Source of the DNA: Craspedostauros australis
Lineage: Eukaryota; Bacillariophyta; Bacillariophyceae; Mastogloiales; Achnanthaceae
DNA: 64,000 nt
NCBI GenBank assembly: GCA_026770025.1
Contig: JAMXDE010000033.1
Location: forward strand, 1 to 64,000
Direction of reading: 5' to 3'
Positions 8,541-53,099 of the stretch are shown here, piece after piece. Under the pieces are notes generated by a model. It was not told the DNA's origin and did not search any database. It saw only the letters and a list, made by a program, of their open reading frames with translations. The position numbers were made by a program, and so were the translations under genes. Numbering within the stretch: the first letter of the stretch is position 1; each line of letters opens with the position of its first letter.

Positions 8541-8559
8541 ATGATCAATGCGCGAGCAA
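8541..8559. repeat. Target-site duplication of the LINE, right copy
   Basis: Exact match of 120-138. It marks the right edge of the LINE, and satellite sequence resumes here in the same phase as where it was broken on the left. Confidence 0.88.
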
Positions 8560-26444: not shown

Positions 26445-26496
26445 CTCTCCCTGTTTGTGCAGAACCTCTCCTTTCATCTCAAAATGACGTCGATTG

Positions 26497-30945: not shown

Positions 30946-31016
30946 CTTGTCGTTGTTCTTCAGCCCTGATGGCCCAACTTCGTGTGTCTGAGTGTCTCAA
31001 GACACGTTTTAAAACG

Positions 31017-31679
31017 TGTTGAAACAGGTCTCAATCCTGTTGCTCATGTAGACCGGGTGGGGCTACAATTGGTTCACTAAGTTAGTTGTTCTGTTATCCC
31101 GGGTTTGTAGGTTGGTGATTCCTCTTTCTCTGCGATTTATGAGCTCGACTTGTCTGTCAAAAGTCAACTCATGTCAATCTCCAGTTGCCCTGCAAACTCG
31201 TGTAGTTCTGACTCCTATTGAGTCAGATCATTTCCTAATTCCTAACGATCCACCGCGATGTGAATCCTCGACCTGCGCCAGTTTCCCGCAGTTCGTCGTG
31301 TTGTTGTCTTATTTGGTCTTGGTTGTGTCAGACAGAGATTCAGGAACTCGATTGCGTCAGTCTCTAATCCTGACGTCTTACCTAAGTGGTTCCTCTCATC
31401 CATATATATCTGGTCTTGCTCCTCTGCTGACGTTCATGCTCTGCTCCTCACGTTCCCGCTGACGTTAGATTCCTCTCGATCGGTAGATTATTTGTTTCTG
31501 AAGATTCCGAGATTCTTTCGTCATATTCGAGGATTCTGCTGTAAATTTCCGTTTTCGGGTTTGGAACATTTGATCGTGAGAAGGAGTTCTGGACAAACAA
31601 ATATGTGTGAGCAGTCATTTGCGCAACTGTGACCCCTACCGGGTCATACACGAATCTGAATATTCGTCATGTTCCAACA
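31017..31679 (-). repeat. 5' LTR of the first Ty1/copia element
   Basis: Matches 25782-26444 throughout. The 18-bp perfect palindrome ACACGTTTTAAAACGTGT (31002-31019) spans its inner edge, where the primer-binding site of such elements lies. Confidence 0.92.
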
Positions 31680-31855
31680 CCACCACAACATCACGAAAAG
31701 CAGATCCAAACAAGACCTCTCCACGACCTGTTTGGGTCGGCTGCTCTTCGTTCGCTGCGGCATCAACGCAACAGAGATCTTGCGGATCTTGTTGAATGAA
31801 GAGAGACACATTCAAGGTATCACACCCAGATGCCAACATCACTCTTCCGATCCAT

Positions 31856-31867
31856 CCCATAAAAAGC
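31856..31867 (+). promoter_or_regulatory. Putative TATA-like element of surface gene A
   Basis: CCCATAAAAAGC lies 97 bp upstream of the ATG at 31953. It is conserved at the same distance before gene B (53003-53014), and a similar CTCATAAAAGC precedes the Lys/Gly-rich gene at 61591. Conservation and fixed spacing suggest a core promoter element; no transcript data support it. Confidence 0.45.
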
Positions 31868-31952
31868 ACACATCGGAACTCTCCGTCACTGTGCTTTCAA
31901 GGGCTGCTTCATTCGGATCAGCATCACCGTGCCCTGCGCAACCATCGCCATC

Positions 31953-34900
31953 ATGAGACTCACCTTGCTCTTCTTCAACGCTCTGCTCGTCGCCGCTTCG
32001 AGAGGTGGCGCGAACGCCTGGTTGCATGACCGCTTCCTCACCGCTCCCTTATCCTCTCGCAAACATGAGGAAGGCTCCTCCTCTGGCGCATCGGCAACTC
32101 CGTCTCACCGCACCAACAGTGCAGGTGTCGGCAACGGCAAACCATCCGAGATCGGAGGCAACGCTGCCAAAGCAGCGAAACCGCCGAACAACGCCGTTGG
32201 CGCAACGGAACGCTCTCTCCAGATGGACATACCACCAGTCGACGTGTGCTCTATCGCCATCCCACTCGAGTTCCCTGTGGGACAAACCAACATCTCGGTG
32301 GTGTCCCAAATCACAACCGTCACCATCGGCGCTGTGGACATTTGCGGGGTTTTCCCAGCCGCCTACGAGGGCTACACGATCGTTGGGAATGGCAACACCT
32401 TCTACGCCACAACCTGCTCCAGTGAGCACAATAGCGTCAACACAGAGATCACCGTATCCTCCTTCAAGGGCCCGGCGAACGCTTCATCCTGCCCATACGA
32501 TGAGTTCGAGTGCATCGGCGAAAACAGCAACGCTTTCTGTCCATCCTCCTTCAACTTAGCAACATACGTTTGGAAAACTGAACCAAATGTGACCTACCAC
32601 ATCGGAATCTATGACACTGGAAACACTGCTGGCACCTACGAGTTGACCATCGGCGACACCGGCGGTCCTCCTCCCGCCAACAACGTTTGCTCCTCGGCCA
32701 TCCCTCTGGTTCTACAGAATGGCACCGTCGCTGTCTCTGGAAGCACCGCCAACGCGTCACCCGATGGCACCGGCAAATGCTTCAGCAGCGTATTCTCTAG
32801 CGTGTGGTACAGTATCGTAGGTGACGGACAAGAGTTCACTGCGACGACCTGCTCCGAGCAGACCACGGCTCCAACTGCCGTGGAGCTGATTCGATCCGAA
32901 GATGGATCCTGTGATAATCTCGTGTGCGGACAGCTTGGGTTCGTCGACAGCAGCTGCGATCCCTCCGAGGGGAGGGGCTCCGTGTCCTGGTTTGCTCGCA
33001 AGGGCGCGACGTACTTCATCCAACCCACCGCAGTACTCGCCGGCAGCGGCGGAGACTTCGAGATGATCATCACCACATCCGAGCCATCTATCTTTGTAGT
33101 CTGCGACGATGCCAGAAATCAAGCCTTGGAGGGGATTTTCGGCACAAAATGTGGGTCCTGCCTTTTCGACGGTGTCGATTTTGACTCTCTCTCCTTCGGG
33201 TGCTCTGTCCCGTGCTTGGCCTGCAGCTCCGATCGCAGCGTCTGCACGCAGAAAACCACAACCACAACCGTCACCCCTTCCTTGGTGACCACGACAGAAC
33301 TACTCATCCAACACACCGAAGGCCCCAACGACGACATCATCTATCGCTACGCCGATGATGGAACATGTACGGTCATGGTCGGCAGCCAGACCTGCACATC
33401 CTGCTCCGTCGGATCATGTGGAAGGCCCATCCTCAGCTGCGCCAACATCGACGCCGATATGCCAGACCTTGACCTTTGCACCAACGAAACCTCTCCTGGC
33501 GTCGCTGGATCATTCAACATGTCCACCAGCCCGCTGTACGCCCTCATCTCATCCGAGTTCGATGGATGCAGCGTCTACGAATCAACGCTGCAATGCGAAC
33601 AGACGGCCGCAGAAGTTATCGAAGAAGATGACCTCAACTGCATCTGTGACTTCGATCCCACCGACGGCATGGCCGTATTGAAGTGCAATCAAACGTGCGG
33701 AGTCGTCTGCAACCTCGAAGAGACGATCTGCGGTTTGGGGTCGCGTACCCAGGACTTCCAGCTTGATGGTGAAGCCACATTTTCACAAATCCGATTCGAC
33801 TATCTCACAGGCTTCGATTCATCTTTCAACTCTCTGACCGTCGGCACGTTCTCGGACTCATCCTGCTTTGTGAGTGCATCCGATGGCTGGTCTTGCGACT
33901 GCGAGTCTGTGCAATGCGCCGACAACAGCACGGATCTTTCCTTTTCTTGCAACAAAGACACAGAATCCTTCGACTACAGCTTCTGCGAGCCAGGTCCTAT
34001 CGATATCCCTGTCTTCTCAGTGTTGTCTGAGGATGGATTCGAGATCTGCCTCGACAAGAGTCCGCAGAACAAGATTTGCCAAGCAGCAATTCTACTTGAT
34101 GCTGCGGATGACTTCGTTTCTTCAAATACCGGCATCCAAATTGACCCGAAGCCAAACTCCTGCGATAGCGAGGCCGCTGGTGGGCTGTGGTACGACATGA
34201 TTGGCTCGGGTGAAGTCATGAAGATCGAACCCTGCTTGGGCACCAATGAGACCACGAAGATATCCATACAAATGGGAATCTGCGATGCCGACGTGCAGTG
34301 CATGGACTCGACAGAGTTCAGCTGCGACCCACTCTTCCTCGATACCGAAAACGGAACATTGTACCAGATGCACTTCTTCGCCCCTTTCTCCGCCCGCAAA
34401 GAAAGTGTCACTTTCGCCGTCTCTACGGCAAACGCAGCGGAGACCGCATGCGCCAAGGTCAAGGAAGTGGAAGTAGCGACTGGTGAATTGAGATGCGCCT
34501 GTATATCGTATCGAGGTTCCATAGCCCTCGTTTGCCAAACCAGCTGTGGTGAGTTCTGCAACACTGATGTGACGGCCTGTGCCACAGTCCGTCTCTTACA
34601 TACGTTCAACTCGATGGGAGAGATGACAACGGAATCCACCACTTATACCTACACATCGGGCCGAGAGGGAACCACTGTGGAGTTGTTTGTCAGGCGGGGC
34701 TTTTGCTCATTGTGCACAGCCACATTCATACAATGGCCCCGAGTGACCAGGTGCAGAGATTGTCAAGTGCAGGCCTGTCCATCCGGAGATACGGCCGCGG
34801 TTGTGGACTGCACCAACATCGACGGTGGTGAAATCTTCAACTTCTGTGGGAACATCACGGTCGACTCCGACAGCCCGTTCCAGGTATTCGATACTGACGA

Positions 34901-35171
34901 GTTCGAACTCTGCTACGCCAATGGAACGCTGCCACCGACTGATGCGCCCACAGGAATGCCGTCCGCATCTCCGTCTGTGTCACCCAGCGGGTCGCCATCC
35001 GTTTCACCCAGCGGGGCTCCGTCTGTGTCACCCAGCGGGGCTCCGTCCATGTCACCATCCGGTTCCCCGACCTCCGGTGCAGCGTTCTCGTTCCGCATGA
35101 CATCCATGAGCAGCATCATCGCACCGTGTGTGGTGGCAGCCATCGCATCTTGGATGCTGTCTGTGGTGTAG
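31953..35171 (+). CDS. Surface protein A: secreted, Cys-rich, PSxSPSG stalk, GPI-type tail (1072 aa)
   Basis: Probably an outer-surface protein; ligand or role unknown. The chosen ATG gives a classic signal peptide (MRLTLLFFNALLVAAS, to ~residue 22); the frame is open 24 nt further upstream but without an ATG. The N-terminal half has two related ~140-residue units (each around CS.AIPL, YxxVGxGxxFxATTCS, a C-rich turn, YxIxxxxxxxGxYELxI), resembling pre-peptidase C-terminal-type beta-sandwiches. A middle of Cys-rich repeats (CNQTCGVVCN, CQTSCGEFCN) follows. From ~residue 985 comes the stalk (PSASPSVSPSG, then SPSGAPS repeats), then a hydrophobic end (IIAPCVVAAIASWML) with no cytoplasmic tail, typical of GPI-anchor signals. 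Gene B is its paralogue; a Ty1/copia element sits just upstream. Confidence 0.85.
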   Translation: MRLTLLFFNALLVAASRGGANAWLHDRFLTAPLSSRKHEEGSSSGASATPSHRTNSAGVGNGKPSEIGGNAAKAAKPPNNAVGATERSLQMDIPPVDVCSIAIPLEFPVGQTNISVVSQITTVTIGAVDICGVFPAAYEGYTIVGNGNTFYATTCSSEHNSVNTEITVSSFKGPANASSCPYDEFECIGENSNAFCPSSFNLATYVWKTEPNVTYHIGIYDTGNTAGTYELTIGDTGGPPPANNVCSSAIPLVLQNGTVAVSGSTANASPDGTGKCFSSVFSSVWYSIVGDGQEFTATTCSEQTTAPTAVELIRSEDGSCDNLVCGQLGFVDSSCDPSEGRGSVSWFARKGATYFIQPTAVLAGSGGDFEMIITTSEPSIFVVCDDARNQALEGIFGTKCGSCLFDGVDFDSLSFGCSVPCLACSSDRSVCTQKTTTTTVTPSLVTTTELLIQHTEGPNDDIIYRYADDGTCTVMVGSQTCTSCSVGSCGRPILSCANIDADMPDLDLCTNETSPGVAGSFNMSTSPLYALISSEFDGCSVYESTLQCEQTAAEVIEEDDLNCICDFDPTDGMAVLKCNQTCGVVCNLEETICGLGSRTQDFQLDGEATFSQIRFDYLTGFDSSFNSLTVGTFSDSSCFVSASDGWSCDCESVQCADNSTDLSFSCNKDTESFDYSFCEPGPIDIPVFSVLSEDGFEICLDKSPQNKICQAAILLDAADDFVSSNTGIQIDPKPNSCDSEAAGGLWYDMIGSGEVMKIEPCLGTNETTKISIQMGICDADVQCMDSTEFSCDPLFLDTENGTLYQMHFFAPFSARKESVTFAVSTANAAETACAKVKEVEVATGELRCACISYRGSIALVCQTSCGEFCNTDVTACATVRLLHTFNSMGEMTTESTTYTYTSGREGTTVELFVRRGFCSLCTATFIQWPRVTRCRDCQVQACPSGDTAAVVDCTNIDGGEIFNFCGNITVDSDSPFQVFDTDEFELCYANGTLPPTDAPTGMPSASPSVSPSGSPSVSPSGAPSVSPSGAPSMSPSGSPTSGAAFSFRMTSMSSIIAPCVVAAIASWMLSVV

Positions 35172-35780
35172 GCAAAGACCCTGATCAAGACCAGATAACA
35201 TCCGAGCACATGCTGCCTGCTGTTACATGCAGTAGGACGCAGATACACACACATGCTTGCTTCGTGATAGGTTCTTCGAGCACCGCGCCGTGAGATCCGA
35301 AACATCCATTGTCGCCCCGCACCCACATCACAGCAGGGCATGACACTGCATGGAAGTGGGCCGAAGTGGATAAACTCAAAAGAGTCCTCTGACATGAAGA
35401 GCAGAACAATGATCTAACCGACAATACTTCTGCAGCAGCGAGTGGCGCCTAGATAGTACGCTAGCTCGTTTTGTTGTCACCATTGCACTATTCGTGTAGT
35501 ATTCGTTCGGTACAGTATGGCACGAAAGCAAGATGAATATCCGTAGGTACGACTCGATGCGACGTGCATCTTGCGCAACCCATCTTGATATTGCTGGTAC
35601 GTGGGTTTTACTCGTACATCGCTTCGGCGTACTCCATCACGACTACAGCGCCTGCACCACAACGGAACATGAAGCTGAAGTCCAATCCGCACATCACCAT
35701 CAGCTGAAGCATCTTGCCCCAATATGTAGTAGATCGCATACGTCAGTTAGGCGCCACGCATCATCAGAGAACTTGGTGAT
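35172..35780. other. 3' flank of surface gene A
   Basis: The first ~230 bp match the 3' flank of gene B (56379-56590), e.g. GCAAAGACCCTGATCAAGACC after both stops, so this is shared downstream sequence, probably 3' UTR. The rest has no supported gene. Confidence 0.6.
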
Positions 35781-36328
35781 GAAGGGGTTGATGAAGTTGA
35801 TGAAGTTGATGATGGCGTTTGACACGAAGGCCGACATGGACTTTGATACAAAAAACGAGTTGAACATCAACATGGAATGTGATTTTGTTTTGCGCTACGT
35901 TCGGCGTCACTTCCTGTGCCGGCTTGTCATCCGTACTCGTATTCGTCTTCGTGCCTTGTAGTCCACCGCAGAATGATCCTGGATGGTGCGATGTGATGCG
36001 CTGTGGTGTGGCATGGCATTATTACTCCATGAGAATGTGTCATGCAGTTAGACCAGAGAACTTGGGAAAACGGCATCGAGCGATGGTTCGGTTTGGTTTG
36101 TTGCTTGGACCACGCCTCGGGGGCTTATTGATGTGGTGTTTATGAGTGTCTTCTTCCATCCTTTCGCTCTTGTAGGTTCAGACAGACTGCGGACTTCATT
36201 TCGCGCTTCATGGATCCTTCATGAATCCTTTGTTGGTGTTCTTCCAGGTGTCCGGAACCAAGAGGTCACCAACTCCAGTCACGGTTTCTGGGCCATTCGC
36301 TCCGGTTGAACCTTTGCTGGGAACAGGA
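35781..36328. repeat. Duplicated non-coding block D, copy 1, left half
   Basis: Matches 51150-51640 with moderate divergence: GAAGTTGATGATG repeats, GTGTGG(C/T)..TTATTACTCCA, GAGAACTTGGG(A/G)AAACGGCAT, GTGTCTTCTT(C/T)CATC and ATTCGCTCC(G/A)GTT. It is split at 36328 by the large Ty1/copia element and resumes at 48155. No ORF is conserved between the copies. Confidence 0.8.
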
Positions 36329-36855
36329 TAATAGAGCTAAACTAGTAACCACCTTAGTGAGAGAGACTACGAATCATCCGACTCGCCTGCATTCCAGTTG
36401 GTCGAACAGACATTTCGCTGAACTCCACGTTTGGAGACAGATCCAGAACCTTGAAGCGGATCTTCGGAATTCGTGTCAGGGAACCAATGGGGTTCCGATA
36501 ACCAAGTTTCTGACACCCTCCATTGCCAAAACACCGACGCACGGAACTAAAGCCACAACAACGAGCACCATCGCCCGTTGTCTCTCACAGAACCCATACG
36601 ACGGATCTCGACCCACGGTACTTGGGCTACACAACCCACACGCATTGTCATACAGGACATCACAGGAGATTCCCCTCGAAGAGAAGAACCATAGCACTAA
36701 TCTCATAATCCGCACGTTTCTTCACCATCTACCAGTATTCTAATTGACTACTTGTGGAACAGAAGACTCTCGTCCGGATCGCTTGCCAGTCAAGCCTCTG
36801 CCTACAGCTAAAGAACAGCCAACAAGACAACAGCCATTACGTTTGGGCTCTATTA
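36329..36855 (+). repeat. 5' LTR of the large Ty1/copia element
   Basis: 527 bp, identical as read to 47628-48154, with perfect 8-bp terminal inverted repeats TAATAGAG/CTCTATTA. Confidence 0.93.
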
Positions 36856-36900
36856 GATTAACAGTCGCAAAAGATTGTCAAGCTCTTAGACCTCTGCAAG

Positions 36901-39900
36901 ATGACCGTCACCCAACGCCTCCAAGACTCCAACCGGCCACCTCCCAAGAGGAGCCCAGGAGACAGGACCGAAGCCTTTGAGACCCTTCCTGCGGACCCAA
37001 AGGACCCAAGCCTCTCTGCCATCCTTGATGGTACGCCAGGCTACCCCACGACTGGGCCGTCTTCGCTCTCCTTCGTGGACATCGGAGTCGATTTCATCGA
37101 GGTCACCTTCCGACACCCCATCATCGTGGATGCATGGAACCGAAAGGAAAGAACCAACGAAACCGAAATCGTGCGCCACGTCCACAAGACTACCTGGAAC
37201 GCGTTCACGGAACTCGGACAGGAGTTTCGGATCAGCATCGAAACCGCCATGATCTTTGATCTCTTCCCGACTAAGACCCTCGCAGAAGAGAAGACCATCT
37301 CCCAACTGTTGATCACCATCCACGAAGAGGCCACCGACATGGACCCGGCATTAGTCATGTTCAACCTCAAGCACCCGGACGACGTAGCAAGGAACTACGA
37401 GACAGGACTCCTCATCTACCACATCGGAGAATGGGTCAGATCCATCGAAGTGGAGGAGGAATCCACCCTCGAATCCACCCTTGACGCGATGTTCGCCGAC
37501 ACGGCCACCACCGCCAAAGCCATGGCAGACTTCTGCCGTTCCGAAAGGTGCGGCAAACGCCACCACCACAAAGCGTGGTTGGATGCCATTGGAGAACACA
37601 AGAAGGCACTCTCCAACGCATCCGCGACCAGCATCTCTTCTGGGTCAGAAGCATCTACCCATAGAACCGGACGCGACAACGACAGCCACCAAGGAGGAAC
37701 CCCATCTGGGCTCTCCCTCATGCTCGGTGGGAATACCCCGCACCGTACCCCACCCAACTTCCAGAACGAAACCCAACTCTCCAGCATCGCCAAGCAAGGA
37801 TCACAAAACACGTCACCAGTGATCATCGACACCCGTGGTACCACTCCGCCCAACGAAGACACCGAACCAGGCACTGACTACGACCAACGCCCTGGTAACG
37901 ACGAAACCGTGAACGTATCCGACAACCGCGGCCCCACAGGACGGAACCGACTCTTCCCCAACGTAGACCCCGCGACGATCGGCGATTACAACCGCAACCC
38001 AACCGGCGCCAAGGTAGTAACCTTCGCCCCCGAAACGACCGCCGGAGGCCCAGGAGGTACCAACGCACCCCGGATGAACCACCCAGAGAACGACGGGAAC
38101 CGCCCACCCCACGATCGGAACCCGCATCCCTACCACGGTCCCGCGGATACACCAGCCTCACACGGCATGGGTAACTATCGAAACGACAACGGGCACGAAC
38201 CCGTGAACCGAAACCCTGCCGGCAACCCACCCGCGAACCATGGGACAAACCGCCCGCACCATGACAACCATGGACCGCCAATTAACCATGGACACAACAA
38301 CGGTAATCCGTATGGGTATCCCCCTAACCTGGGAAACCAACTCCCTCATGGCCCACCGATTCCGATGTACCACGGAACCCACCCAGGAGGATTCCCGCCC
38401 ATTGGAATCCCTATCCCCATGGGCCACTTTCCCCATGGAGCCGGAGGTTTTCCAATGCCGCAAGGAGCCTTCACCCCTGTTGGACCCCCTCACCCCGGGT
38501 ATCCACCACGACCACCCGCGTATGGGTACCGCCCAACCGATCCCAATGGAGGTTTCGGAAGACATGACCCTCGCAACATGGGTCCGAACACCCCACACGG
38601 GCGACACGAACCCGGGTATACACCCCATCGAGGATCCACCCGCAGCGAACCACCAGTCGCCCAGGCCAAGCTAACGAAGCGACGCCCCATCCCGGACTCC
38701 GCCAAATTCACGAGTGATGCGGCGTCCTTCCAAATGGTGAAACACCAAATCCATGCCCACCTCCTTGGAAACGACATGGCGTACCTGATCAACGACCAGT
38801 TCCGGCACCGATACCATTCCCAAGGAATCCACGCAATCAAGGACCACATTGACCCGGTGACTGGAGTGCCAACAACCACATCACCAGAACAGGTCGCGAG
38901 CGACGTCAGGACCCTATTCGCGGGACTATATTCCGTCTTCGCCGGCGGCCCAGCACACGGACTCGCCACCAGAGGACTCCTCAACGAGGACGGTATCCTA
39001 TTCTGGAATGAGCTCCTCAATACCTACGATAACGACTGGATCCGAGGAATGGAGGTCGACTCTCTGATGAAGAGGGTACACAACTTCAACCCCAGCAGAC
39101 AGGACCTGGGATCCTACGTAAAGGAAATCCAGGATATATTCGCGAACGTGAATTTCCTGGCGACCAACCCGGATCAACAAGTCTCCGACGCGCAACAACG
39201 CCGCACACTCCTCAACCACCTCATCGGTTGCGACGACATCAACGTTCGCACCATGGTCCGGAGCATCGAGCGAAGCCCGGACATGCAGTCGATGGGAGCC
39301 ACCTGCATGTACCTCATCTCCGAGTCCGCTAGGGACAATGCGGTAGCCAACAACCAGCGGGGATCAAGGTCCGGCAAACGCAGGATCTTCAAGGCAACCG
39401 CCGAAACCAACCAAGATCAAGGTGAATCCAACACTGAGATGGTCATCAATGCCATTTCGAAGAAACTACAGGAGGATCCCACCTTCATCTCACAAGAAGT
39501 ATTCGATGGACTACCTGAGAAGGTCCGTCGAGTGATCATGAAACTCCGCAGTTCCCTCCGCTGGGCCCGCCGCAATAACGACCGGAACGGATCCGGATTC
39601 ACCCGCGTCGAGGGCAAGAAGGAGCAGGAAGAACCCCAACCACCTGCCAGCGTGAAGCCCCCAGAGAAAGGGGAGGAAACCAATCCACACAAGCAGTATG
39701 GAGGTGTTACCCACGCGAACCTGGCCAGGTACACCGCAGGATCCACCGAGGGATCTGATTCCCAGGACGGGAATGGATCGGACCTATCCTCGATTGACGC
39801 TTCGGAGCTTGCCAAGTTCCTAGTCGATTATGGAGGACACGAGAAGAACGGCAACGACCGACTCGTGAAAATGATCACGATGAGTGACTCATCCGACGCC

Positions 39901-42900
39901 CCAAGCCCCATCGACCCACCAGAATCCAAACAACGCCAATCAGTGCCCGAACAGCTGATCAACCTGGCGACCTTCTCTCCGCAAACATACGCGGTATGTG
40001 ACGGAGGCGCACAATGCTGCGTTATCGGGAACAAGGACCGGGTCTGGAAGATTGACTACTTCTACCCGCATCGGACGTACAACATCGTCGGTGCCGTGGC
40101 CAGCACGATGAGGAAGAACAACCTCGCGGTGGTAGACGCAAGTATCAAGGCCAGGACCAGAGAAGGCAACGAAGTGATCCTCCGGATCTACGAAGCCGCT
40201 CTGAACGTCGACAGTCGGGTGACGCTGTTATCCGACCACCAAATTCGGGCCAGTGGAGCCGTCCTCGATACGGTTTCGTCGGAACACCGGGCATCGTTCG
40301 CGACACCAGGCACGGGCCGACAATGCCTAATGCCTGACGAAGACACGACGATCAACTTGGAGATGCGAGACGCGCTGATGACATTCGACGTATTCCCCAT
40401 CATGGAGGACGATGAGGATCTGCCCACCTATGACATCACCCCAAAGCAAGGATGGAACCCTTCAGATCACCAAGGAGGACACGTATGCAACGTGCCCATG
40501 GGTTGCTACCTTACCAGGGACCCAATTGGAGGAGACAAGGTTGTCGACTGGGATGACCAACCTGATGCACCGCGTGACGCTGGAGCAATGGATCCAAGCG
40601 CCCACAACGCATCGAAGGATCCCACGGAACCCAGGACACGCCAGGCCATAGACGGTATCCCGAATAATCCCATGGAAGGACGAGAACCCATGGACCCCAA
40701 CGCCCATCACCCAGATGAGCACGCCACAGGAGACCCCAACCGTGTACACGAGGAGTACCCCAAGGTGGACGCATTCCTTGACACCCTAAGTCTCGAGGAG
40801 CTCATCGGAATGTCACATGCAATTGACACGGTAACATTCGCGAAATCGGCTACCGACACTGCCACCTCGATCCAAGGCACCCTTTTCGACATGGTGGACA
40901 ATCTCTCCGCGGGAGACATCGACCACCTATACAGGGAGCTGGGCATCGATCGCGAGGCCAACGCAGTAGGAACGGACCAAATAGGATACATCAAGCCAAC
41001 CGACGTTCCATCGACAAAGGTATCAGATCCAGATGACAAGGCTGACAGCGTCATCTCATCCTTACACTCGGTAGGATCCGAACCGGCGTTCCAGAGAAAT
41101 CGGGAGACTTTTCGTATCCCCAACGAGATCGGCGTGACCAAGGCAACACGTGTCGATACCCTCCGGGGAGACCCGCGAAGCGCACCTGAATTCCACGGGC
41201 ACACCAAGGGCGAGAAACCCGCTGGGATTGACGACCCGGGAAAGGACAATCCCATGGACACCATGGACCGACACCCTGCGGAAGCTATGACCGAGTACAG
41301 CCACCAAGGGTTCCCGTTCCGAGCTAAATGGAAGTCCATCGATCTTCACAAGATCCGACCGTACCTTGGGTACCTACCCACGCACGTGATCAAGCAGACC
41401 CTCGCCAGAACCACGCAACTCATGCGGGCAGTGATCACTTACCCTATGCGAAGGCATAAGAAGTCCAGATTCGAGTGGATGCGACGACAACGAATCCGGG
41501 AGATCGTGGCGACGGACACCATATTCTCCAACGTCAAGTCTTTTGGAGACGGATACTCCATGGCGCAAATCTTCTACGGGACATCCTCCCACATGATCAA
41601 CGCATACGGCCTGAAGAAGAAAGAAGGAGTTTTCGTCGCCTTCCAGGATTTCATCAGGACAGAGGGTGCACCATGGGCTTTCCACAGCGACAACGCGAAG
41701 GAACAGACCGGAGAGAAGGTCCTCAAGCTTCTTAGGGACCTCCACATCAAATCAAGGTTGACAGAACCGCACAACCAGCAACAGAACCCGGCCGAGCACA
41801 ACGCCATCCTGTACATGAAACGATGTGTCACGACGCTCATTGACCGGACAGGGGCACCACCAAAAGCATGGTTCCACGCTTTCCGATACATGTGCTACGT
41901 GCACAACCATACATCAGACCCGTCCCTACGGTACGCAATCCCATACACCGTACGACACGGAGAAACCGTCGACATCTCTGCGCTCTTGACTTTCCAATTC
42001 TACGAGAAGGTCTTGTACCATGACCCCAACGCTACCTTCCCGAATTCGAAGGAGAAGTCAGGATACTGGCTCGGCGTGGCAGAGTCCCATGGGGATTTCC
42101 TCACCTACCACGTGCTGGATGACGAATCTCGACGTGTACTGGTACGGAGCGTGGTCCGCCCCTTCAGGAAGGGTATAAACAACAACAGGCGTGTCACCTT
42201 CGACCAAGACATGGACCCCGAGACAGATAACCCCAGCACACGGACCCCGCTGGAACTGTCTGGTACCCCGCAAGGGTGGAAGACCAAGACCCCACCTAAA
42301 AGAGGGTATGCGGCGACGGCCAAGACGACGCACCCACGGGCATGGGAGAACAAGACCGACAAACCGACGCGACCCGCCGGGATCCCAGACTCAGGGGAGG
42401 CACGGAACACAGGACCCGTCACCCGATCCCAAACGCTAACCAAGCGGACAGCGAAGGCACCCACGACGCGTGCCACCGAGAAGGACAAACCGCGAACGAG
42501 CCGCGATACGCCAGACAGGGGAGACTCTGACCCAGGATCTTCGTACCTTCCATGTTCGTCGGGACCACCATCATACCAACGCATGGATGACGGCCCCAAA
42601 GAAAGGGGAGGGAATAAGAGGACCAAGCAAAACAAACGGTCCGTTTTGTCCACAGGCACCAGGAAAGGCATCCCATGGAAGAACATCGTCCATGGAACGA
42701 TCAGATCCATAATCCAGACCATCGCAGCGGATCCAGTCACGACAGGCGTGAACACCGCGCCACCGCAAAGGGTACCCACCCTAACAAACCATCCAGGGAA
42801 CCCGAGGCAGAACCCACCAGGATGCAACACGGGCATCCCATGGGACACGACATCCATCTCCTTTGCCTGCAACCTGACAGCAACAGAAGTCAACCAACTC

Positions 42901-45900
42901 GCATACCTGGCCCAATGTGACCAGTACACCGAAAGAGACAACTTCATCCTCGATGGAAGGAACCTCAACTGGAAGGCAAAGAGAATCACTCGTCACCACC
43001 ACGAGACACGAGAGGACGGAACCACCGAAGCAATCCTAGAGATCCTATGGATGAACGGAATGCGATCATGGTGCAGGATGGGAGACCTAAGGGCCCAACA
43101 GCCAGACATCATCATCGAATACACCGAGCAGAACCACCTACAGGACCAGAAAGGGTTCGAATGGGTGGAACTCCACAGAGCAAGGAACCAGCACATGCGA
43201 ACAATGCTAGCCACCAAACTGGCAAACCACCGCCCAGGAAACAAGTACAAGTTCGGCACCCTGGTACCCAATAGCCTGAAACACGCCATGGCTATCGACA
43301 GGCTCAACGGAAACGGACTCTGGAGCGAAGCTATCAACAAGGAACTGGACCAGATCAAACGGTTGGGGACCTTCAGACAACCAAGACCGAACAAAGCACT
43401 CGATGGGTACACCAAGATCCCATACCACATCGTCTACGACGTGAAGTTCGATCTACGTCGAAAGGCAAGACTGGTGGCAAACGGGAACAAGACGTCCCCA
43501 CCAACAGAAGATGTATACTCAGGAGTGGTAGCATCAGACACCATCCGAATCGCCTTCGCCATCGCAGCAGCCAACGGACTAAGAGCATACGCCGGCGACG
43601 TAGGGAACGCGTTCCTATACGCCGACACCCTCGAGAAATGCTACATCCGAGCAGGCCCTGAATTCGGTAACCTCGAAGGCAAACCCCTCATCATCCAAAA
43701 GGGACTCTACGGCCTGAGGACATCCAGCGCGAGGTTTCACGAACACTTCGCGGACACCCTCCGAACCATGGGATTCCTACCCTCCAAGGCCGACAATGAC
43801 ATCTACACCCGAGAAGCCGACGACCACTACGAGATGATCACTACATACGTGGATGACGTACTGGTCTTCAGTAAGGACCCCATCCCAATCATCGACGACC
43901 TCAAGAAACGGTACACCATGAAACAATGCGGTGACCCAGAGTACTACCTTGGCGGGAACATCGTCGACCTTCCCAAGAACTGGAAGGACAGGGGAGTCAA
44001 CATCGGACTCTCAGCCCAGACGTATATCGGAAATGTCATCAAACGAGTGGAGCAACTAGTAGGGAAGACAATCCCGAAGGCATCCACCCCCATGGTAGAG
44101 GCCTGTCACCCAGAAAGTGACACCTCGGACTTCACAAGCGCTGAAGACGCCAGGACCTACCGATCGATACTGGGTTGCCTCAATTGGGTCGTGACCCTCG
44201 GGAGGCTGGACATCCAATACGCCACGACGACGATGGCACGGTTCGCCATGGCACCAAGGGAAGGACACCTCTTGACCATCCAACGTATCATTGGGTACCT
44301 CAAAGGTCGAGAAAGGGGAGCCATTCTCTGCGACCCCAACCCAGTGGACCACATGAACATCGACACCACCCTCTCAAGCCATTGGAGAGAATTCTACCCT
44401 ACCGCATCAGAGGTCACCCCCGTATCAGTACCAACACCAAAAGGGAAACCGGTACAAATCACGTGTTACGTGGACGCCGACCATGGCCATGACCAGGTCA
44501 CACGGAAATCAATGACGGGCGTGGTTCTACTGATCAACAACACCATCGTCAAAACCATCTGCAAGCGACAGAACACAGTGGAGACATCAACCTACGGATC
44601 CGAATTGGTAGCCGCCAGGATAGCTACCGAGGCGGTCACAGGCCTGCGATACATGCTGAGAGATCTCGGAGTCCCCATCGACGGACCCGCAATCATGCTC
44701 GGAGACAACAAAGCGGTGGTACTCAATACTACGGTTCCATCCTCAACGCTGAAGAAGAAACACTGCTCATTGGCCTTTCACCAAATCCGGGAATGCATCG
44801 CCGCTGGAATCATTGTGTTCGCCCACATTGCGTCAGTTGACAACATCGCCGACATACTCACCAAGCCTCTTTCCAAAACACCATTCCACCACATCACGTC
44901 GAGAACGATATTCCGGAACTCAATCCATGAGTCCGGATACCACAGCGAGACCATATCACAAGCCATAACGAAGAGCAGGACGACCAGAGCAGACGATGAT
45001 CCCGATATATTGGCCACGGAAACGCAAGAACCATCACTACCGAAGGAAGAACACACTATGAGCGTGAACATGGCAAGGTACCAACAGACCTCCATGAAGT
45101 ACAGCCCGACATCAAAAACCCTTCGGCTAACCAGAACCCAACGAGAACCGAACCCCCTCGGAACGGCACAAAGGAAATCACCCAGAACCATCAAGCGCAC
45201 CAAGAGCACACCGGCCTCGACCAACCGCCAACAGACGCGAAATTCCAATGTCGTATACGACATGACCGACAACCGTAACACGAATCAGAACCACGAGCCA
45301 GCCGGCGCGCCAACCGCCAATTTCACGATCCGGCGTGGCGACACACCACCATCAGCCCTCACAGACGAATTCAGCGCACTATCGAGTATCAACCCCTCAT
45401 GTGGAAGCGACGTCCTCTACTACCCAAGAGACATGCTGGAGACAGGGCCCATCATGCCAAGGAACCAATCACACGTCGCCACATCGACCAAGTTCCGGAA
45501 ACCGCCACCTGGAGTCACCATGCCAGCCATCAAAGAAGGCAACTGTGAAACTTCCTTCCACACGGGCCTGACACCTCGGGCTTTCGTCACACCTGAGCAC
45601 GAAACATACAGGTGCGACATGCTGATCGCTGATCTCCAAGAAGACCTGGCACGGAACGCGACCGCACCCTCTATTGCATTCCGCGACATGAACATGCTTT
45701 CACCACAAAAACGGAGCCGCCACAACCAGGACCCCAGACACAACCTCTCCCCATTCCAGACAAGGACACGCAAGATGACATTCCCGAAGTACTCCCCGTT
45801 CTACAAGGGCATCCATTGTCCCGTCCCCGGATCCAGAGTGCTATATCCCGCAGGAAAGAAGGGACCCTTCCAAGGAATCGTCGTCGGATACAGTGGCCGC

Positions 45901-47529
45901 AGAGTCCGAATCTTCTGCACGAAGGGAAACGAGAACACACCAGCCGGCCGTGTTTCCCACGTAGAGAAACAATCCATCTACCCCCTCACCCTCTCCGAGT
46001 ACCTGGATGACAACCTCCAAACCACCGAGGTCCTCAGCATCGCCATAGCCGATGGCCAGTGCTTCTACCCCGCTCAAGACGGCGCATGGGCCGAACTAAC
46101 CGACGAGTTCCGCGCGATCATGCGGAAGCCATCCATATGCCACTTCTTCAAGGTGAGGAAGAACCGGATCCCAATCATCCTCACACGAGCAAGGAAGGCA
46201 CGAATGGTCCGGAAACAAAGCGACACCCTCGCCACCAACTTCGCACGAGAGAAGAAAGCACTCGCGAACGAGCCTTTTCCCCCTTCCGATGATGATGAGA
46301 TGGTCAATGGGATACCATCCCTCGAAGATACCCGTCCCAGTCTCGAAGAGGGAGAGACACCAGAAGGCAGGTTCCTGGATGAGATCCCTGACGGATTCTT
46401 CGACGAGAAGATGACCGCAGAAGAAGCCAGCCACCAGGAGTCTGAATCAGAGGCGCACCACGATGGAGACCAAGAATCGCAGGACCCAGGAAGCGTGATT
46501 GACGTGGAAGCAGAGATCGCGAGTGGAGCGGTGATCAGCCATCCCAGACCTCCCGTCAGACGATCATCACGACCATCACCGGCGTCCAAAATCTTGACCG
46601 CCACGCGAGATGGACAAGGGTATACCGACAAGGTACGCCCAAAGCCCATGATCCCAACCGACCATTCCGTGGACAGTGCGTCCATCCCAGAGCCCGGCGA
46701 CAGTGACGATTCTGGGTCCATCTACCGACCAGAAGGCAAGCCGATCAAACGGAACCAAGCGTCGCGACGACCCAGCTCTGGAACCAACAGCAAGCAAAGC
46801 AATCGCCCCAAAAGAGAGGGGCTCTTCGACGAATCCGAGGACTCCACCATTTCCTCGGGAATGTCGGGAATCAAGACGATCAAACAGGTCAGGTCCGCCA
46901 AGAAAACCACGAGTGGGACCATCAACGCGAAGAAAGCTCCCACCACGGCCGCGGAGAATCCTCCCGAGGCAGCAGAGCCGATGCCTCCCATAACCCAAGA
47001 CGAACAACCAGAGCCTCCTACACTACCGGAGGAACCAATCGATGACGACGTACCGGTAGCAACCGCGTACCCGGCACCTGTGATCCACAATGAGGATGCG
47101 GACGCCAACACTCGCAGTTTTCCCATCCTGAACCATCCCCTACCATTGACTCCCAACACTCCGGAGACCAGCAACGCTAACAAGAGGGCCCGGACGGAGC
47201 CCCGACCAGCGATTGCATACCCATCGCCACGACGTCTTCGGTCTGGATACATCATGTCCAGCAACCATGGACCAGCGATGATGCAACCATCCATGTTCCA
47301 GATGCCCCACGACCCCACAGCTCAGATCAAGGCCGTCCTCCAAAACGACGAGAGGACTCCTATGGTCATCCAAACCCTCGCTGATATCCTTTTCCGCGGA
47401 GGGTTTGACCACATCAACCAAGTCCAGCAGGTCAGCATCACCTCCTCGTTGAATGAGGCATTGGAGACCATGCTCACCAACCGCCACCAACGCCGCGGCT
47501 TCTACGACAACAACGAACAGCCCGAATGA
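36901..47529 (+). CDS. Giant Ty1/copia polyprotein (3542 aa)
   Basis: One frame more than twice the usual copia length (~1300-1600 aa). In order: a ~230-residue N-terminal part; a long Pro/Gly/Asn/His low-complexity stretch (~230-590); a gag-like helical domain (~600-830); an aspartic-protease-like segment (YAVCDGGAQC, ~1030); a spacer of ~400 residues; integrase core (ATDTIFSNVKS, AFHSDNAKE, NPAEHNAI, ~1500-1660); a low-complexity spacer; reverse transcriptase (VYSGVVASDTIR, TTYVDDVLVF, ~2110-2340); and RNase H (CYVDADHGHD, TYGSELVAAR, ~2515-2670). About 860 further residues follow with no counterpart in ordinary copia. Within them ~2960-3030 (SRVLYPAGKKGPFQGIVVGY) looks like a small SH3/Tudor-like barrel, and the last ~80 residues are helical. 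What the extension does is unknown. Confidence 0.92.
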   Translation: MTVTQRLQDSNRPPPKRSPGDRTEAFETLPADPKDPSLSAILDGTPGYPTTGPSSLSFVDIGVDFIEVTFRHPIIVDAWNRKERTNETEIVRHVHKTTWNAFTELGQEFRISIETAMIFDLFPTKTLAEEKTISQLLITIHEEATDMDPALVMFNLKHPDDVARNYETGLLIYHIGEWVRSIEVEEESTLESTLDAMFADTATTAKAMADFCRSERCGKRHHHKAWLDAIGEHKKALSNASATSISSGSEASTHRTGRDNDSHQGGTPSGLSLMLGGNTPHRTPPNFQNETQLSSIAKQGSQNTSPVIIDTRGTTPPNEDTEPGTDYDQRPGNDETVNVSDNRGPTGRNRLFPNVDPATIGDYNRNPTGAKVVTFAPETTAGGPGGTNAPRMNHPENDGNRPPHDRNPHPYHGPADTPASHGMGNYRNDNGHEPVNRNPAGNPPANHGTNRPHHDNHGPPINHGHNNGNPYGYPPNLGNQLPHGPPIPMYHGTHPGGFPPIGIPIPMGHFPHGAGGFPMPQGAFTPVGPPHPGYPPRPPAYGYRPTDPNGGFGRHDPRNMGPNTPHGRHEPGYTPHRGSTRSEPPVAQAKLTKRRPIPDSAKFTSDAASFQMVKHQIHAHLLGNDMAYLINDQFRHRYHSQGIHAIKDHIDPVTGVPTTTSPEQVASDVRTLFAGLYSVFAGGPAHGLATRGLLNEDGILFWNELLNTYDNDWIRGMEVDSLMKRVHNFNPSRQDLGSYVKEIQDIFANVNFLATNPDQQVSDAQQRRTLLNHLIGCDDINVRTMVRSIERSPDMQSMGATCMYLISESARDNAVANNQRGSRSGKRRIFKATAETNQDQGESNTEMVINAISKKLQEDPTFISQEVFDGLPEKVRRVIMKLRSSLRWARRNNDRNGSGFTRVEGKKEQEEPQPPASVKPPEKGEETNPHKQYGGVTHANLARYTAGSTEGSDSQDGNGSDLSSIDASELAKFLVDYGGHEKNGNDRLVKMITMSDSSDAPSPIDPPESKQRQSVPEQLINLATFSPQTYAVCDGGAQCCVIGNKDRVWKIDYFYPHRTYNIVGAVASTMRKNNLAVVDASIKARTREGNEVILRIYEAALNVDSRVTLLSDHQIRASGAVLDTVSSEHRASFATPGTGRQCLMPDEDTTINLEMRDALMTFDVFPIMEDDEDLPTYDITPKQGWNPSDHQGGHVCNVPMGCYLTRDPIGGDKVVDWDDQPDAPRDAGAMDPSAHNASKDPTEPRTRQAIDGIPNNPMEGREPMDPNAHHPDEHATGDPNRVHEEYPKVDAFLDTLSLEELIGMSHAIDTVTFAKSATDTATSIQGTLFDMVDNLSAGDIDHLYRELGIDREANAVGTDQIGYIKPTDVPSTKVSDPDDKADSVISSLHSVGSEPAFQRNRETFRIPNEIGVTKATRVDTLRGDPRSAPEFHGHTKGEKPAGIDDPGKDNPMDTMDRHPAEAMTEYSHQGFPFRAKWKSIDLHKIRPYLGYLPTHVIKQTLARTTQLMRAVITYPMRRHKKSRFEWMRRQRIREIVATDTIFSNVKSFGDGYSMAQIFYGTSSHMINAYGLKKKEGVFVAFQDFIRTEGAPWAFHSDNAKEQTGEKVLKLLRDLHIKSRLTEPHNQQQNPAEHNAILYMKRCVTTLIDRTGAPPKAWFHAFRYMCYVHNHTSDPSLRYAIPYTVRHGETVDISALLTFQFYEKVLYHDPNATFPNSKEKSGYWLGVAESHGDFLTYHVLDDESRRVLVRSVVRPFRKGINNNRRVTFDQDMDPETDNPSTRTPLELSGTPQGWKTKTPPKRGYAATAKTTHPRAWENKTDKPTRPAGIPDSGEARNTGPVTRSQTLTKRTAKAPTTRATEKDKPRTSRDTPDRGDSDPGSSYLPCSSGPPSYQRMDDGPKERGGNKRTKQNKRSVLSTGTRKGIPWKNIVHGTIRSIIQTIAADPVTTGVNTAPPQRVPTLTNHPGNPRQNPPGCNTGIPWDTTSISFACNLTATEVNQLAYLAQCDQYTERDNFILDGRNLNWKAKRITRHHHETREDGTTEAILEILWMNGMRSWCRMGDLRAQQPDIIIEYTEQNHLQDQKGFEWVELHRARNQHMRTMLATKLANHRPGNKYKFGTLVPNSLKHAMAIDRLNGNGLWSEAINKELDQIKRLGTFRQPRPNKALDGYTKIPYHIVYDVKFDLRRKARLVANGNKTSPPTEDVYSGVVASDTIRIAFAIAAANGLRAYAGDVGNAFLYADTLEKCYIRAGPEFGNLEGKPLIIQKGLYGLRTSSARFHEHFADTLRTMGFLPSKADNDIYTREADDHYEMITTYVDDVLVFSKDPIPIIDDLKKRYTMKQCGDPEYYLGGNIVDLPKNWKDRGVNIGLSAQTYIGNVIKRVEQLVGKTIPKASTPMVEACHPESDTSDFTSAEDARTYRSILGCLNWVVTLGRLDIQYATTTMARFAMAPREGHLLTIQRIIGYLKGRERGAILCDPNPVDHMNIDTTLSSHWREFYPTASEVTPVSVPTPKGKPVQITCYVDADHGHDQVTRKSMTGVVLLINNTIVKTICKRQNTVETSTYGSELVAARIATEAVTGLRYMLRDLGVPIDGPAIMLGDNKAVVLNTTVPSSTLKKKHCSLAFHQIRECIAAGIIVFAHIASVDNIADILTKPLSKTPFHHITSRTIFRNSIHESGYHSETISQAITKSRTTRADDDPDILATETQEPSLPKEEHTMSVNMARYQQTSMKYSPTSKTLRLTRTQREPNPLGTAQRKSPRTIKRTKSTPASTNRQQTRNSNVVYDMTDNRNTNQNHEPAGAPTANFTIRRGDTPPSALTDEFSALSSINPSCGSDVLYYPRDMLETGPIMPRNQSHVATSTKFRKPPPGVTMPAIKEGNCETSFHTGLTPRAFVTPEHETYRCDMLIADLQEDLARNATAPSIAFRDMNMLSPQKRSRHNQDPRHNLSPFQTRTRKMTFPKYSPFYKGIHCPVPGSRVLYPAGKKGPFQGIVVGYSGRRVRIFCTKGNENTPAGRVSHVEKQSIYPLTLSEYLDDNLQTTEVLSIAIADGQCFYPAQDGAWAELTDEFRAIMRKPSICHFFKVRKNRIPIILTRARKARMVRKQSDTLATNFAREKKALANEPFPPSDDDEMVNGIPSLEDTRPSLEEGETPEGRFLDEIPDGFFDEKMTAEEASHQESESEAHHDGDQESQDPGSVIDVEAEIASGAVISHPRPPVRRSSRPSPASKILTATRDGQGYTDKVRPKPMIPTDHSVDSASIPEPGDSDDSGSIYRPEGKPIKRNQASRRPSSGTNSKQSNRPKREGLFDESEDSTISSGMSGIKTIKQVRSAKKTTSGTINAKKAPTTAAENPPEAAEPMPPITQDEQPEPPTLPEEPIDDDVPVATAYPAPVIHNEDADANTRSFPILNHPLPLTPNTPETSNANKRARTEPRPAIAYPSPRRLRSGYIMSSNHGPAMMQPSMFQMPHDPTAQIKAVLQNDERTPMVIQTLADILFRGGFDHINQVQQVSITSSLNEALETMLTNRHQRRGFYDNNEQPE

Positions 47530-47598
47530 AGCCCGCTCGCCGCCATCTTGGGCGGCGGAACAAACCACACTATGATTAGCTTTCTTGCTTTCAGTCAA

Positions 47599-47616
47599 CT
47601 CACGTTTCAACGTGAG
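47599..47616. repeat. Perfect hairpin near the 3' LTR of the large Ty1/copia element
   Basis: CTCACGTT, TC, AACGTGAG: 8-bp perfect arms, 11 bp before the 3' LTR and next to the purine-rich tract. The other Ty1/copia element has a related ACACGTTTTAAAACGTGT palindrome at its opposite LTR junction. Confidence 0.7.
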
Positions 47617-47627
47617 ATGAAGGGGAG

Positions 47628-48154
47628 TAATAGAGCTAAACTAGTAACCACCTTAGTGAGAGAGACTACGAATCATCCGACTCGCCTGCATTCCAGTTGG
47701 TCGAACAGACATTTCGCTGAACTCCACGTTTGGAGACAGATCCAGAACCTTGAAGCGGATCTTCGGAATTCGTGTCAGGGAACCAATGGGGTTCCGATAA
47801 CCAAGTTTCTGACACCCTCCATTGCCAAAACACCGACGCACGGAACTAAAGCCACAACAACGAGCACCATCGCCCGTTGTCTCTCACAGAACCCATACGA
47901 CGGATCTCGACCCACGGTACTTGGGCTACACAACCCACACGCATTGTCATACAGGACATCACAGGAGATTCCCCTCGAAGAGAAGAACCATAGCACTAAT
48001 CTCATAATCCGCACGTTTCTTCACCATCTACCAGTATTCTAATTGACTACTTGTGGAACAGAAGACTCTCGTCCGGATCGCTTGCCAGTCAAGCCTCTGC
48101 CTACAGCTAAAGAACAGCCAACAAGACAACAGCCATTACGTTTGGGCTCTATTA
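47628..48154 (+). repeat. 3' LTR of the large Ty1/copia element
   Basis: Pairs with 36329-36855; followed by the second copy of the target duplication CAGGA. Confidence 0.93.
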
Positions 48155-48760
48155 CAGGACAGGATGGAGAAAGATGAGTGAGATGCCAATACGACAGTTT
48201 GTGTGGATCCGTTCAACTGGAGATGCTCTTGAGACAGAGCTGTGAAAGTGTGGACGTGACGGTCTGAGGCGGAAAGGCGTCGTTGGTGATCTATTTTCAG
48301 CGTTGATGAGTGGTTTAAATGATACAGTTGGCATCGTCTGTGCGATTGTTGTTCGTGTCGTTTCTGGTTGTTACCGCTTCTGTTTTGTTGTTCTGTCGGT
48401 GTTGATTGGACACCATCTCTCCATGTATGGAGAGATGGCTATGAGATGCGGTAGATACGGATCATTGCGGGTTGGTGGAATGTCGAACGAGTATCGGCCG
48501 GACCCAAGGACGTGATGAAGCCCACCCAACACAGAAACCGATGTGGTGTTCGCCGACTCCATCCGATTGGCGGATGGGATGAGAGGGGTTCGCTCTCGTC
48601 AGGTCAGTCCACAATGACATTCTCACAAGAGCGCATGCTGCTTCGTATGCCGTGTTGACACTGTTGTGCTTCGCACACGGAGGCAGAGAACGTTATCACA
48701 ACATTCAGATTTATAGTGAAAGGTCCCAGAAAGAGACCCTGCTCCGGAACGTCTGTGGTG
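48155..48760. repeat. Duplicated non-coding block D, copy 1, right half
   Basis: Continues 35781-36328 after the Ty1/copia insertion. It matches ~51640-52110: GATGCCAATACGACAG(T/A)TTGTGTG, GAGACAGAG(C/A)TGTGAAAGTG, GGTG(G/T)AATGTCGAACGA(G/A)(T/A)ATCGG(C/A)C and CCCTGCTCC(G/T)GA. No conserved ORF. Confidence 0.75.
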
Positions 48761-51149: not shown

Positions 51150-52110
51150 GTTGAGGTTGATGATGAAGTTTGTGTGAAGGCTGATACGAAGGACGATGTC
51201 GAAGTTGATGATGACGTTGGTGTGAAAGCTGATACGAAGGTTCACTTTCGTGGTCGGCTGGAGCGTGGTGTGATGGTGTGCGGTGCAGCGTGGTCTTATT
51301 ACTCCACACACTCGCGCACGGAGCAATCGTACCGATTGGGCAGAGAACTTGGGGAAAACGGCATTGAGTGATGGTTCGGTTTGCTGGTTGGATCACACCA
51401 AGAGAACTTATTGGCGTGGTGCTTGTGGGTGTCTTCTTTCATCGTTTCACCCTCGTAGGTTCAAACAGACAACGGTGCTTTGTTCCACACTTCCTCAATC
51501 CTTCATGGATCTTTTGTGACCCTTCGTGATGCTTCTCCATCTGTTTGGGACCGAGAGACAATCAACTTCAGCCTCGGTTTCTGTACCCATTCGCTCCAGT
51601 TCAACTTTCTTCGGGGACAGGATAGAACAGGACGTGTGGGATGCCAATACGACAGATTGTGTGAATCCGTACAATTGGAGATAGTCTCGAGACAGAGATG
51701 TGAAAGTGCGAACATGATACTATAGTCCCATCCAGAATGACGTTGTTGGTGTTCTGGTGTTATGCGTAATTTTGTGCTTTGTGTGCTTTGTGTGCGCTTT
51801 GTGTTGTTCTGCACAGCGTCCGCCAACAGGACACATCCATCAAAAACGCGAATCGGAGGTGCGGTACATAACTTGTTTGGGATAATACAGTGATTCGGCC
51901 ATTATTGCTTGGTGTAATGTCGAACGAAAATCGGACGAAACCAACGGAGGAGGCAAACTGTTCGACAAAAAACAAATGAGATGTTCGTCTACTGTGTCCG
52001 ATTTGTAGGCTAGACAAGAGATGGGTCGTACTCCGCCGGATCTTGGAGCGCGTTGACTTCATTTTGACGAAAGCAGAGAATGAGCCCTGCTCCTGACCTC
52101 TTGTGGAACA
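51150..52110. repeat. Duplicated non-coding block D, copy 2
   Basis: The uninterrupted paralogue of 35781-36328 plus 48155-48760. It lies upstream of surface gene B, whereas copy 1 lies downstream of gene A. It includes an internal ~60-bp duplication (GCTGATACGAAGG...GAAGTTGATGATGACG). At ~51614-51650 it keeps the unoccupied version of the Ty1/copia target (GGGGACAGGATAGAACAGGAC). Confidence 0.78.
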
Positions 52111-52850: not shown

Positions 52851-53002
52851 CAAAAGCCAATCCAAAGATCTTTGCTGTGTTCTTCAATCAGCTTGCTTCC
52901 GCGGTGGCATCGGCACAACAAAGATCTTGTGGATCCTGTTGAATGAAGAGAGGCACATCCAAGGTGTCACGCCCAGATGCCGACATCACTCTTACGACCT
53001 AT

Positions 53003-53014
53003 CCCATAAAAAGC
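53003..53014 (+). promoter_or_regulatory. Putative TATA-like element of surface gene B
   Basis: CCCATAAAAAGC, 97 bp before the ATG at 53100, at the same spacing as in gene A. Confidence 0.45.
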
Positions 53015-53099
53015 GTACATCGGAACTCTCCACCAGTGTGCTTTCAAGGGCTGTTTCATTCGGATCAGCATCACCGTGCCCTGCGCAACCATCGCCATC

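Follow-up and report, generated by a model that had tools for sequence, protein, structure and literature searches.

Copia elements of diatoms have been described as CoDi elements. The part of the diatom survey drawn on here gives lengths of 5182-8062 bp for full-length elements and of 153-844 bp for their LTRs, and lists 26 families of which 3 (CoDi3.2, CoDi4.2 and CoDi4.3) lack TG/CA ends (Maumus et al. 2009, PMC2806351). For CoDi-A elements a putative chromodomain has been placed at the C-terminus of the integrase (IN), according to the sections used of two further papers (Llorens et al., PMC2774666; also PMC5348765). LTR elements with other than TG/CA ends are known from plants as well, and the types given in the consulted part of PMC5659011 are TG-GA, TA-CA, TG-TA, TG-TT and AA-CA. 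Two further features of plant copia elements are relevant here, both taken from excerpts of one survey (PMC6317226). Some lineages are primed by half a tRNA, namely Osser, Bryco and part of Gymco-II by half of tRNA-Met and Bianca by half of tRNA-Ile, and tRNA-Asn figures there only among the complete-tRNA primers (2% of elements). Furthermore, SIRE elements often (74%) carry a heterogeneous extra ORF at their 3' side.

Positions 36329-48154 of the window, by which we mean the whole 64,000-nt stretch of DNA that was analyzed, constitute a complete LTR retrotransposon of 11,826 bp (Table 1). It resembles the CoDi elements, as far as these are characterized in the excerpts of PMC2806351, in its order of protease (PR), IN, reverse transcriptase (RT) and RNase H (RH) and in an LTR length that falls within their range. 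It shares LTRs without TG/CA ends with 3 of their 26 families, and the lack of a CCHC finger with those outside CoDi6.2-6.5. Unlike the CoDi elements it is 11,826 bp long instead of 5182-8062 bp, a comparison made by description only. Given these precedents, for a diatom host, which the PT/PS-repeat proteins of the window may suggest, the ends and the missing CCHC finger are not unprecedented, while the size lies beyond the range stated in the same excerpts. A giant copia element of diatoms was not described in the titles and abstract openings of the open-access literature searched, nor in the parts used of PMC3601003, PMC9998398, PMC8147415, PMC12803021 and PMC11541908. As it stands the element is one well-formed copy of a kind already known, Ty1/copia. 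What sets it apart is chiefly the great length of its one protein, together with the RNA fragment that probably primes it, and its interest rests on the C-terminal tail of this protein, on the probable priming by half of a tRNA-Asn and on its size.

Table 1 Features of the giant copia element and of its target site (positions in the window)
Feature	Position	Strand	Basis
Target-site duplication, 5' copy, CAGGA	36324..36328	+	sequence reading
5' LTR, 527 nt, ends TAATAGAGC...GCTCTATTA	36329..36855	+	LTR alignment, inverted termini
Probable primer-binding site, directly 3' of 5' LTR	36856..36869	+	complementarity to tRNA-Asn anticodon arm
Single open frame, 3542 codons, Gag-PR-IN-RT-RNase H-extension	36901..47529	+	ORF list
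N-terminal/Gag region, aa 1-1033, with P/G/N/H-rich low-complexity stretch at about aa 250-590	36901..39999	+	composition
Protease active-site Asp, CDGGAQCC, aa 1034	40000..40002	+	motif reading only
Piece with integrase core D1539, D1597, E1632 (D,D35E)	41308..42240	+	rve profile, motif
IN-RT segment, aa 1982-2106, predicted sheet and helix	42844..43218	+	model, mean pLDDT 56.5
Reverse transcriptase and RNase H	43198..44886	+	RVT_2 8.1e-25, motifs
C-terminal extension, aa 2663-3542, 880 residues	44887..47526	+	composition, codon usage
Polypurine tract GAAGGGGAG, adjoins 3' LTR	47619..47627	+	read from sequence
3' LTR, 527 nt, same as 5' LTR	47628..48154	+	LTR alignment
Target-site duplication, 3' copy, CAGGA	48155..48159	+	sequence reading
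Empty site, uninterrupted paralogous target region	51341..51717	+	73% / 83% identity to the two flanks

Boundaries, ends and insertion site

Pairwise alignment showed that the two LTRs are identical at 527 of 527 nt, with no mismatch and no gap, and the insertion is therefore regarded as recent. The LTR termini TAATAGAGC and GCTCTATTA are perfect inverted repeats of 9 nt, with the non-TG/CA end sequences TAATAG/CTATTA. At the 5' junction ...GGAACAGGA is joined to TAATAGAG and at the 3' junction CTCTATTA to CAGGACAGG, with CAGGA as the duplication. The outermost bases beyond the two LTRs are unlike each other; therefore the boundary is unambiguous and the ends cannot slide. For an empty-site test 120 nt of each flank were joined, one CAGGA was removed and the product was aligned locally to positions 51341-51760. 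This yielded a single, imperfect local alignment of 222 columns, interrupted by a 4-nt gap next to the point of insertion. That the window contains such a paralogous, apparently empty site speaks for a clean insertion. The element is very probably a young, structurally intact and probably autonomous Ty1/copia LTR retrotransposon that is presumably active.

Nearly all that a sequence-only reading of this DNA had reported on the structure of the element agrees with these data. The coordinates it gave are exact to the nucleotide, the CAGGA duplication it described as exact is found on both flanks, and the non-TG/CA ends are indeed TAATAGAGC...GCTCTATTA, although the perfect inverted repeat is one nucleotide longer than it had noted. 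The single 3542-codon frame and the giant Ty1/copia polyprotein were also correctly recognized, its description of this protein as more than twice the normal size is fair when set against a 1482-aa copia ORF in the same window, and the long low-complexity spacers it mentioned are borne out. Its proposal that the unusual ends mark a distinct lineage finds no support, as 3 of the 26 diatom copia families treated in the consulted part of PMC2806351 lack TG/CA. The integrase would recognize the non-TG/CA ends of its own LTRs, as may be gathered from the termini that match over 9 nt and from the clean duplication of 5 bp. TA-TA ends are absent from the non-TG/CA types given in the part of PMC5659011 used here, and ends such as TAATAG/CTATTA would help to show how far end recognition by an integrase can drift.

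Probable primer-binding site

A point missed in the sequence-only reading is a probable primer-binding site. From position 36856, 11 nt are complementary to E. coli tRNA-Asn(GUU), asnU, at its nt 30-40, and 14 nt are complementary to a presumed yeast tRNA-Asn sequence. The 11-nt asnU complementarity occurs at 3 of 127,990 positions on both strands of the window; on the + strand, the sole strand scanned for it, the 14-nt complementarity is confined to 36856. Pairing begins at the first base past the 5' LTR and ends at nt 40 of asnU. Since it involves the anticodon arm and goes no further than this nucleotide, a 5' half-tRNA is naturally read as the primer. Drosophila copia uses a half-tRNA primer of 39 nt. 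Minus-strand synthesis is thus likely to be primed by the 5' half of the host tRNA-Asn(GUU), and the 3' end of this tRNA half (nt 39-40) would pair directly after the LTR.

It is improbable that the element primes itself or uses another RNA as primer, with the tRNA-Asn match a product of chance. The tRNA was chosen after inspection of the sequence, tRNA-Asn was the only tRNA compared, in its E. coli and yeast forms, and the 14-nt version relies on a presumed sequence, all of which would favor chance. Against it, the match starts exactly at the edge of the LTR and ends at nt 40, close to the 39 nt of the Drosophila copia half-tRNA, and by our own arithmetic the chance of 11 nt at that place for any of ~46 isoacceptors is near 7e-4.

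Like Osser, Bryco, part of Gymco-II and Bianca, the element has its probable primer-binding site beside the 5' LTR and would pair there with the anticodon arm instead of the tRNA 3' end; unlike these lineages, for which the excerpts of PMC6317226 give tRNA-Met and tRNA-Ile halves, it would use tRNA-Asn(GUU). If true, this would be a third tRNA beside the two half-tRNA types in those excerpts of the plant survey. Priming by half of a tRNA-Asn was not described in the titles and abstract openings of the open-access literature searched.

Polyprotein and its C-terminal extension

The long frame contains no internal stops. RVT_2 was found in the polyprotein with E 8.1e-25 (88.3 bits, cut-off 31.6), and the integrase core profile rve matched with E 6.4e-4 at 20.4 bits, below its gathering score of 32.6 (Pfam). 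The spacing between D1597 and E1632 is 35 residues. By motif reading the YVDD of the RT is located at aa 2316-2319 and the acidic RNase H residues are D2525, E2568, D2602 and D2651. Integrase precedes RT and RNase H, and this order, PR-IN-RT-RNase H, is that of copia; therefore the element belongs to Ty1/copia. Among nine pieces of the polyprotein no Pfam family beyond RVT_2 reached its cut-off, the N-terminal pieces aa 1-240 and 590-900 included. The protease had no Pfam profile match and was assigned by motif alone, and RT-RNase H had no match among PDB chains at E up to 1. A pattern search of the whole polyprotein found neither a CCHC knuckle (Gag) nor an HHCC motif (integrase). Both are common in Ty1/copia elements, not universal. 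The extra length, relative to the 1482-aa copia ORF of the same window, is spread over several places: 1033 residues lie ahead of the protease Asp, and the integrase is preceded by about 300 residues of D/P-rich spacer and followed by about 200 of T/P/R-rich spacer. The size excess would be mostly low-complexity spacer at the N-terminus, between PR and IN and between IN and RT, plus the tail of 880 residues. The element's own protease is expected to cut the single polyprotein into Gag, PR, IN, RT-RH and a C-terminal product.

The stretch between IN and RT bears on the question whether the element belongs to the CoDi-I/CoDi-A copia lineage, with aa 1982-2106 as a chromodomain that targets integration to marked chromatin. 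We regard this reading as quite possible, at somewhat less than an even chance. In copia order the chromodomain of CoDi-A, as placed in the consulted part of PMC2774666, lies between IN and RT, where aa 1982-2106 lies. The single-sequence model of this segment (mean pLDDT 56.5) has four strands (44-55, 61-69, 74-80 and 88-94) and a helix (102-123). The lack of CCHC fingers also fits, these being reported only in CoDi6.2-6.5 in the excerpts of PMC2806351. By eye only, aa 1982-2106 looks chromodomain-like. The searches speak against a chromodomain: a profile built from four chromodomain sequences gave an hhalign probability of 0.14% with aa 2010-2106 and of 0.04% with the whole polyprotein (12 columns at aa 2001-2012), the IN-RT stretch had no PF00385 match (Pfam) and no match among PDB chains at E up to 10, and Foldseek with the model gave no match at E up to 0.001 and no chromodomain among the best 50 of 349 matches. 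The best Foldseek matches were phosphoglucomutases (E 0.05, TM 0.3), which is meaningless at such model quality. A chromodomain in the IN-RT stretch is thus unsupported by profile, PDB or fold comparison. Like CoDi-A/CoDi-I in the sections used of PMC2774666 and PMC5348765, the element may have a small beta-sheet domain between IN and RT; unlike in these elements, with their integrase chromodomain, none is recognized here by profile or fold. Judged from position and general features alone, membership of CoDi-I itself may be right, with the balance slightly against it.

The C-terminal tail, counted from the last conserved TKPL motif, is 880 residues long. Over aa 2670-3542 its own frame has 0 stops, and the two remaining forward frames have 26 and 21 (sums over three pieces of 9, 5 and 12 and of 6, 1 and 14). 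Its relative synonymous codon usage (RSCU) correlates with that of RT-RNase H at 0.91 in frame, at 0.74 and 0.64 out of frame and at 0.22 on the opposite strand. By comparison, the values for the integrase, for aa 1-1025 and for the second copia element of the window were 0.87, 0.88 and 0.66. Judged by these statistics the tail is genuinely coding and carries the element's own codon usage. Since 880 codons have stayed open with strong in-frame codon usage, the tail must have been translated, and its frame maintained, until recently. The sequence-only reading had counted about 860 residues after RNase H; the coding extension stands and its length is corrected to 880.

Over most of its length the tail is of low-complexity or disorder-type composition, the main stretch of ordered-type composition being ~aa 2950-3110. 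None of its pieces came near the cut-off of a Pfam family (best E 0.14) and nothing was found in NCBIfam at E up to 1. HMM searches and structure prediction of the C-terminal part, the check that had been proposed along with the sequence-only reading, thus gave no family at cut-off and a model of low confidence: the single-sequence model of the barrel stretch has a mean pLDDT of 35.6. The 'barrel-like segment' that the same reading had placed in the tail amounts to a guess at that pLDDT, the barrel piece having no match among PDB chains at E up to 10. For the added function that it had suggested (targeting, packaging or chromatin binding) no positive evidence was obtained from Pfam, NCBIfam, PDB or the chromodomain profile. 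The barrel as a duplicate of the SH3-like C-terminal domain of the integrase was rejected (score 27, Z 0.97, equalled in 16.8% of 1000 shuffles), and so was a chromodomain in the barrel stretch, where the chromodomain profile had no match. From composition, ~aa 2950-3110 may be a fair place to look for a folded module.

These data leave a real possibility, well short of even, that tail and spacers serve no function and are low-complexity padding that is tolerated because the protease trims it. The disorder-type composition of most of the tail, the lack of a family at cut-off in Pfam and NCBIfam and the barrel piece's lack of significant similarity to the integrase C-terminal domain agree with such padding; the 880 open codons with their strong in-frame codon usage and the ordered-type composition of aa 2950-3110 argue against it. 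That the tail arose by in-frame fusion of an extra ORF of envelope-like or SIRE type is improbable. Its position and heterogeneity fit the SIRE 3' extra ORF, and like SIRE-type copia the element has extra coding sequence past RNase H; unlike in SIRE-type copia, described with a separate 3' ORF in the excerpts of PMC6317226, this sequence lies in frame with pol within one polyprotein. It also has no transmembrane-like segment (maximum 19-residue hydropathy 0.7), and an envelope was rejected for lack of a membrane segment.

The role found most likely for the tail, put forward tentatively, is that of an accessory product that tethers RNA or protein in the particle or pre-integration complex. It would be processed from the polyprotein, with a single small folded module set among flexible, charged stretches that do the tethering. 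Conservation of the tail would make this a copia element with a further product added to its polyprotein, and a role in targeting or packaging could then be tested directly. A more far-reaching proposal is that of a distinct giant copia lineage, primed by the 5' half of a tRNA-Asn, with LTR ends of its own that a matching integrase recognizes. Its C-terminal protein would be under selection, and the small folded module in it would steer integration by binding to chromatin or a host factor. This combination we consider unlikely.

Relatives of the element

Relatives were sought in prokaryotic, viral, phage and plasmid collections only, with no eukaryote genomes among them. In these collections no relative sharing the C-terminal extension was found, and scans of viral contigs gave no relative at all. 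With RT-RNase H as tblastn query, matches were found in 3 of 72,556 plasmid records and in 0 of 50,697 phage records; with the IN and barrel pieces the plasmid records gave no match at E up to 0.01. A scan of genome contigs with an RT query yielded 3 loci, all of which the whole polyprotein matches over RT-RNase H alone. The query aa 1982-2700 matched 3/3 (E 1e-3), 1/395 (1e-8), 1/232 (1e-6), 3/294 (1e-6) and 1/21 (1e-6) in five genome sets, where the matches in the sets of 395, 232 and 21 and one of those in the set of 294 are genomes of the first set, so that only two further genomes are added. Among the matches listed, all start at residue 158 of this query or later, i.e. in RT-RNase H. Similarly, the whole polyprotein matched 9 of 9 loci (L001, L002 and L022-L028) over RT-RNase H with 22.6-27.9% identity, and nothing outside this region at E under 0.1. 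We take the copia-matching loci in these collections to be eukaryotic contamination. In a tree built from 12 copia rows, of which these loci supply 10, the element is on a long branch with no supported placement.

An ordinary copia element is present in the same window at 26497-30945 on the minus strand. It belongs to the same superfamily (tblastn 23.6% over 569 columns, E 4.6e-25) and, unlike the giant element, encodes 1482 aa, has CCHC knuckles and shows TG...CA-type ends. The window also harbours PT/PS-repeat proteins.

Genes of the window outside the giant element

The giant element, the Ty1/copia retrotransposon with the 3542-codon frame, was found to be inserted between the copies of a duplicated gene pair (88% identical at the DNA level), the products of which, of 1080 and 1100 aa, carry PT/PS-rich repeats close to the C-terminus. 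The EMC3/TMCO1-like membrane protein gene is in line with nuclear eukaryotic DNA.

Features of the window other than the giant element
Feature	Position	Strand	Pfam
First ORF of adjacent pair	279-8392	+
Second ORF of adjacent pair	8541-11949
843-aa ORF	18534-21065	minus
Ordinary copia element	25782-31680	minus
Its direct repeats	25782-26445 / 31017-31680
Duplicated gene, first copy	31753-35382	+
Duplicated gene, second copy	52900-56591	+
EMC3/TMCO1-like gene	57205-58113	minus	4.6e-37

Other mobile elements and possible mobile elements

The window also harbours an ordinary copia element, with a 1482-aa ORF encoding Gag, zinc knuckles, IN, RT and an SH3-like domain. Its direct repeats (664 nt each) are identical and have ends of the TG...CA type, with a one-base ambiguity in the boundary. 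Like the giant element, it is young.

The second ORF of the adjacent pair encodes an endonuclease and an RT of the non-LTR type. The pair is followed by a tandem array with a unit of ~181 bp; the window itself opens with 138 nt that are similar to this unit. The 843-aa ORF matched GCR1_C at a score above the cut-off, and phage integrase at one below the cut-off. This domain arrangement is reminiscent of Crypton tyrosine-recombinase transposons.

Copia-type RT in plasmid and MAG records

Copia-type RT regions were found under bacterial plasmid labels (NZ_CP115454.1, NZ_CP115302.1, NC_015657.1) as well as in MAG contigs (L003-L005, L022-L028), and probably represent eukaryotic contamination.
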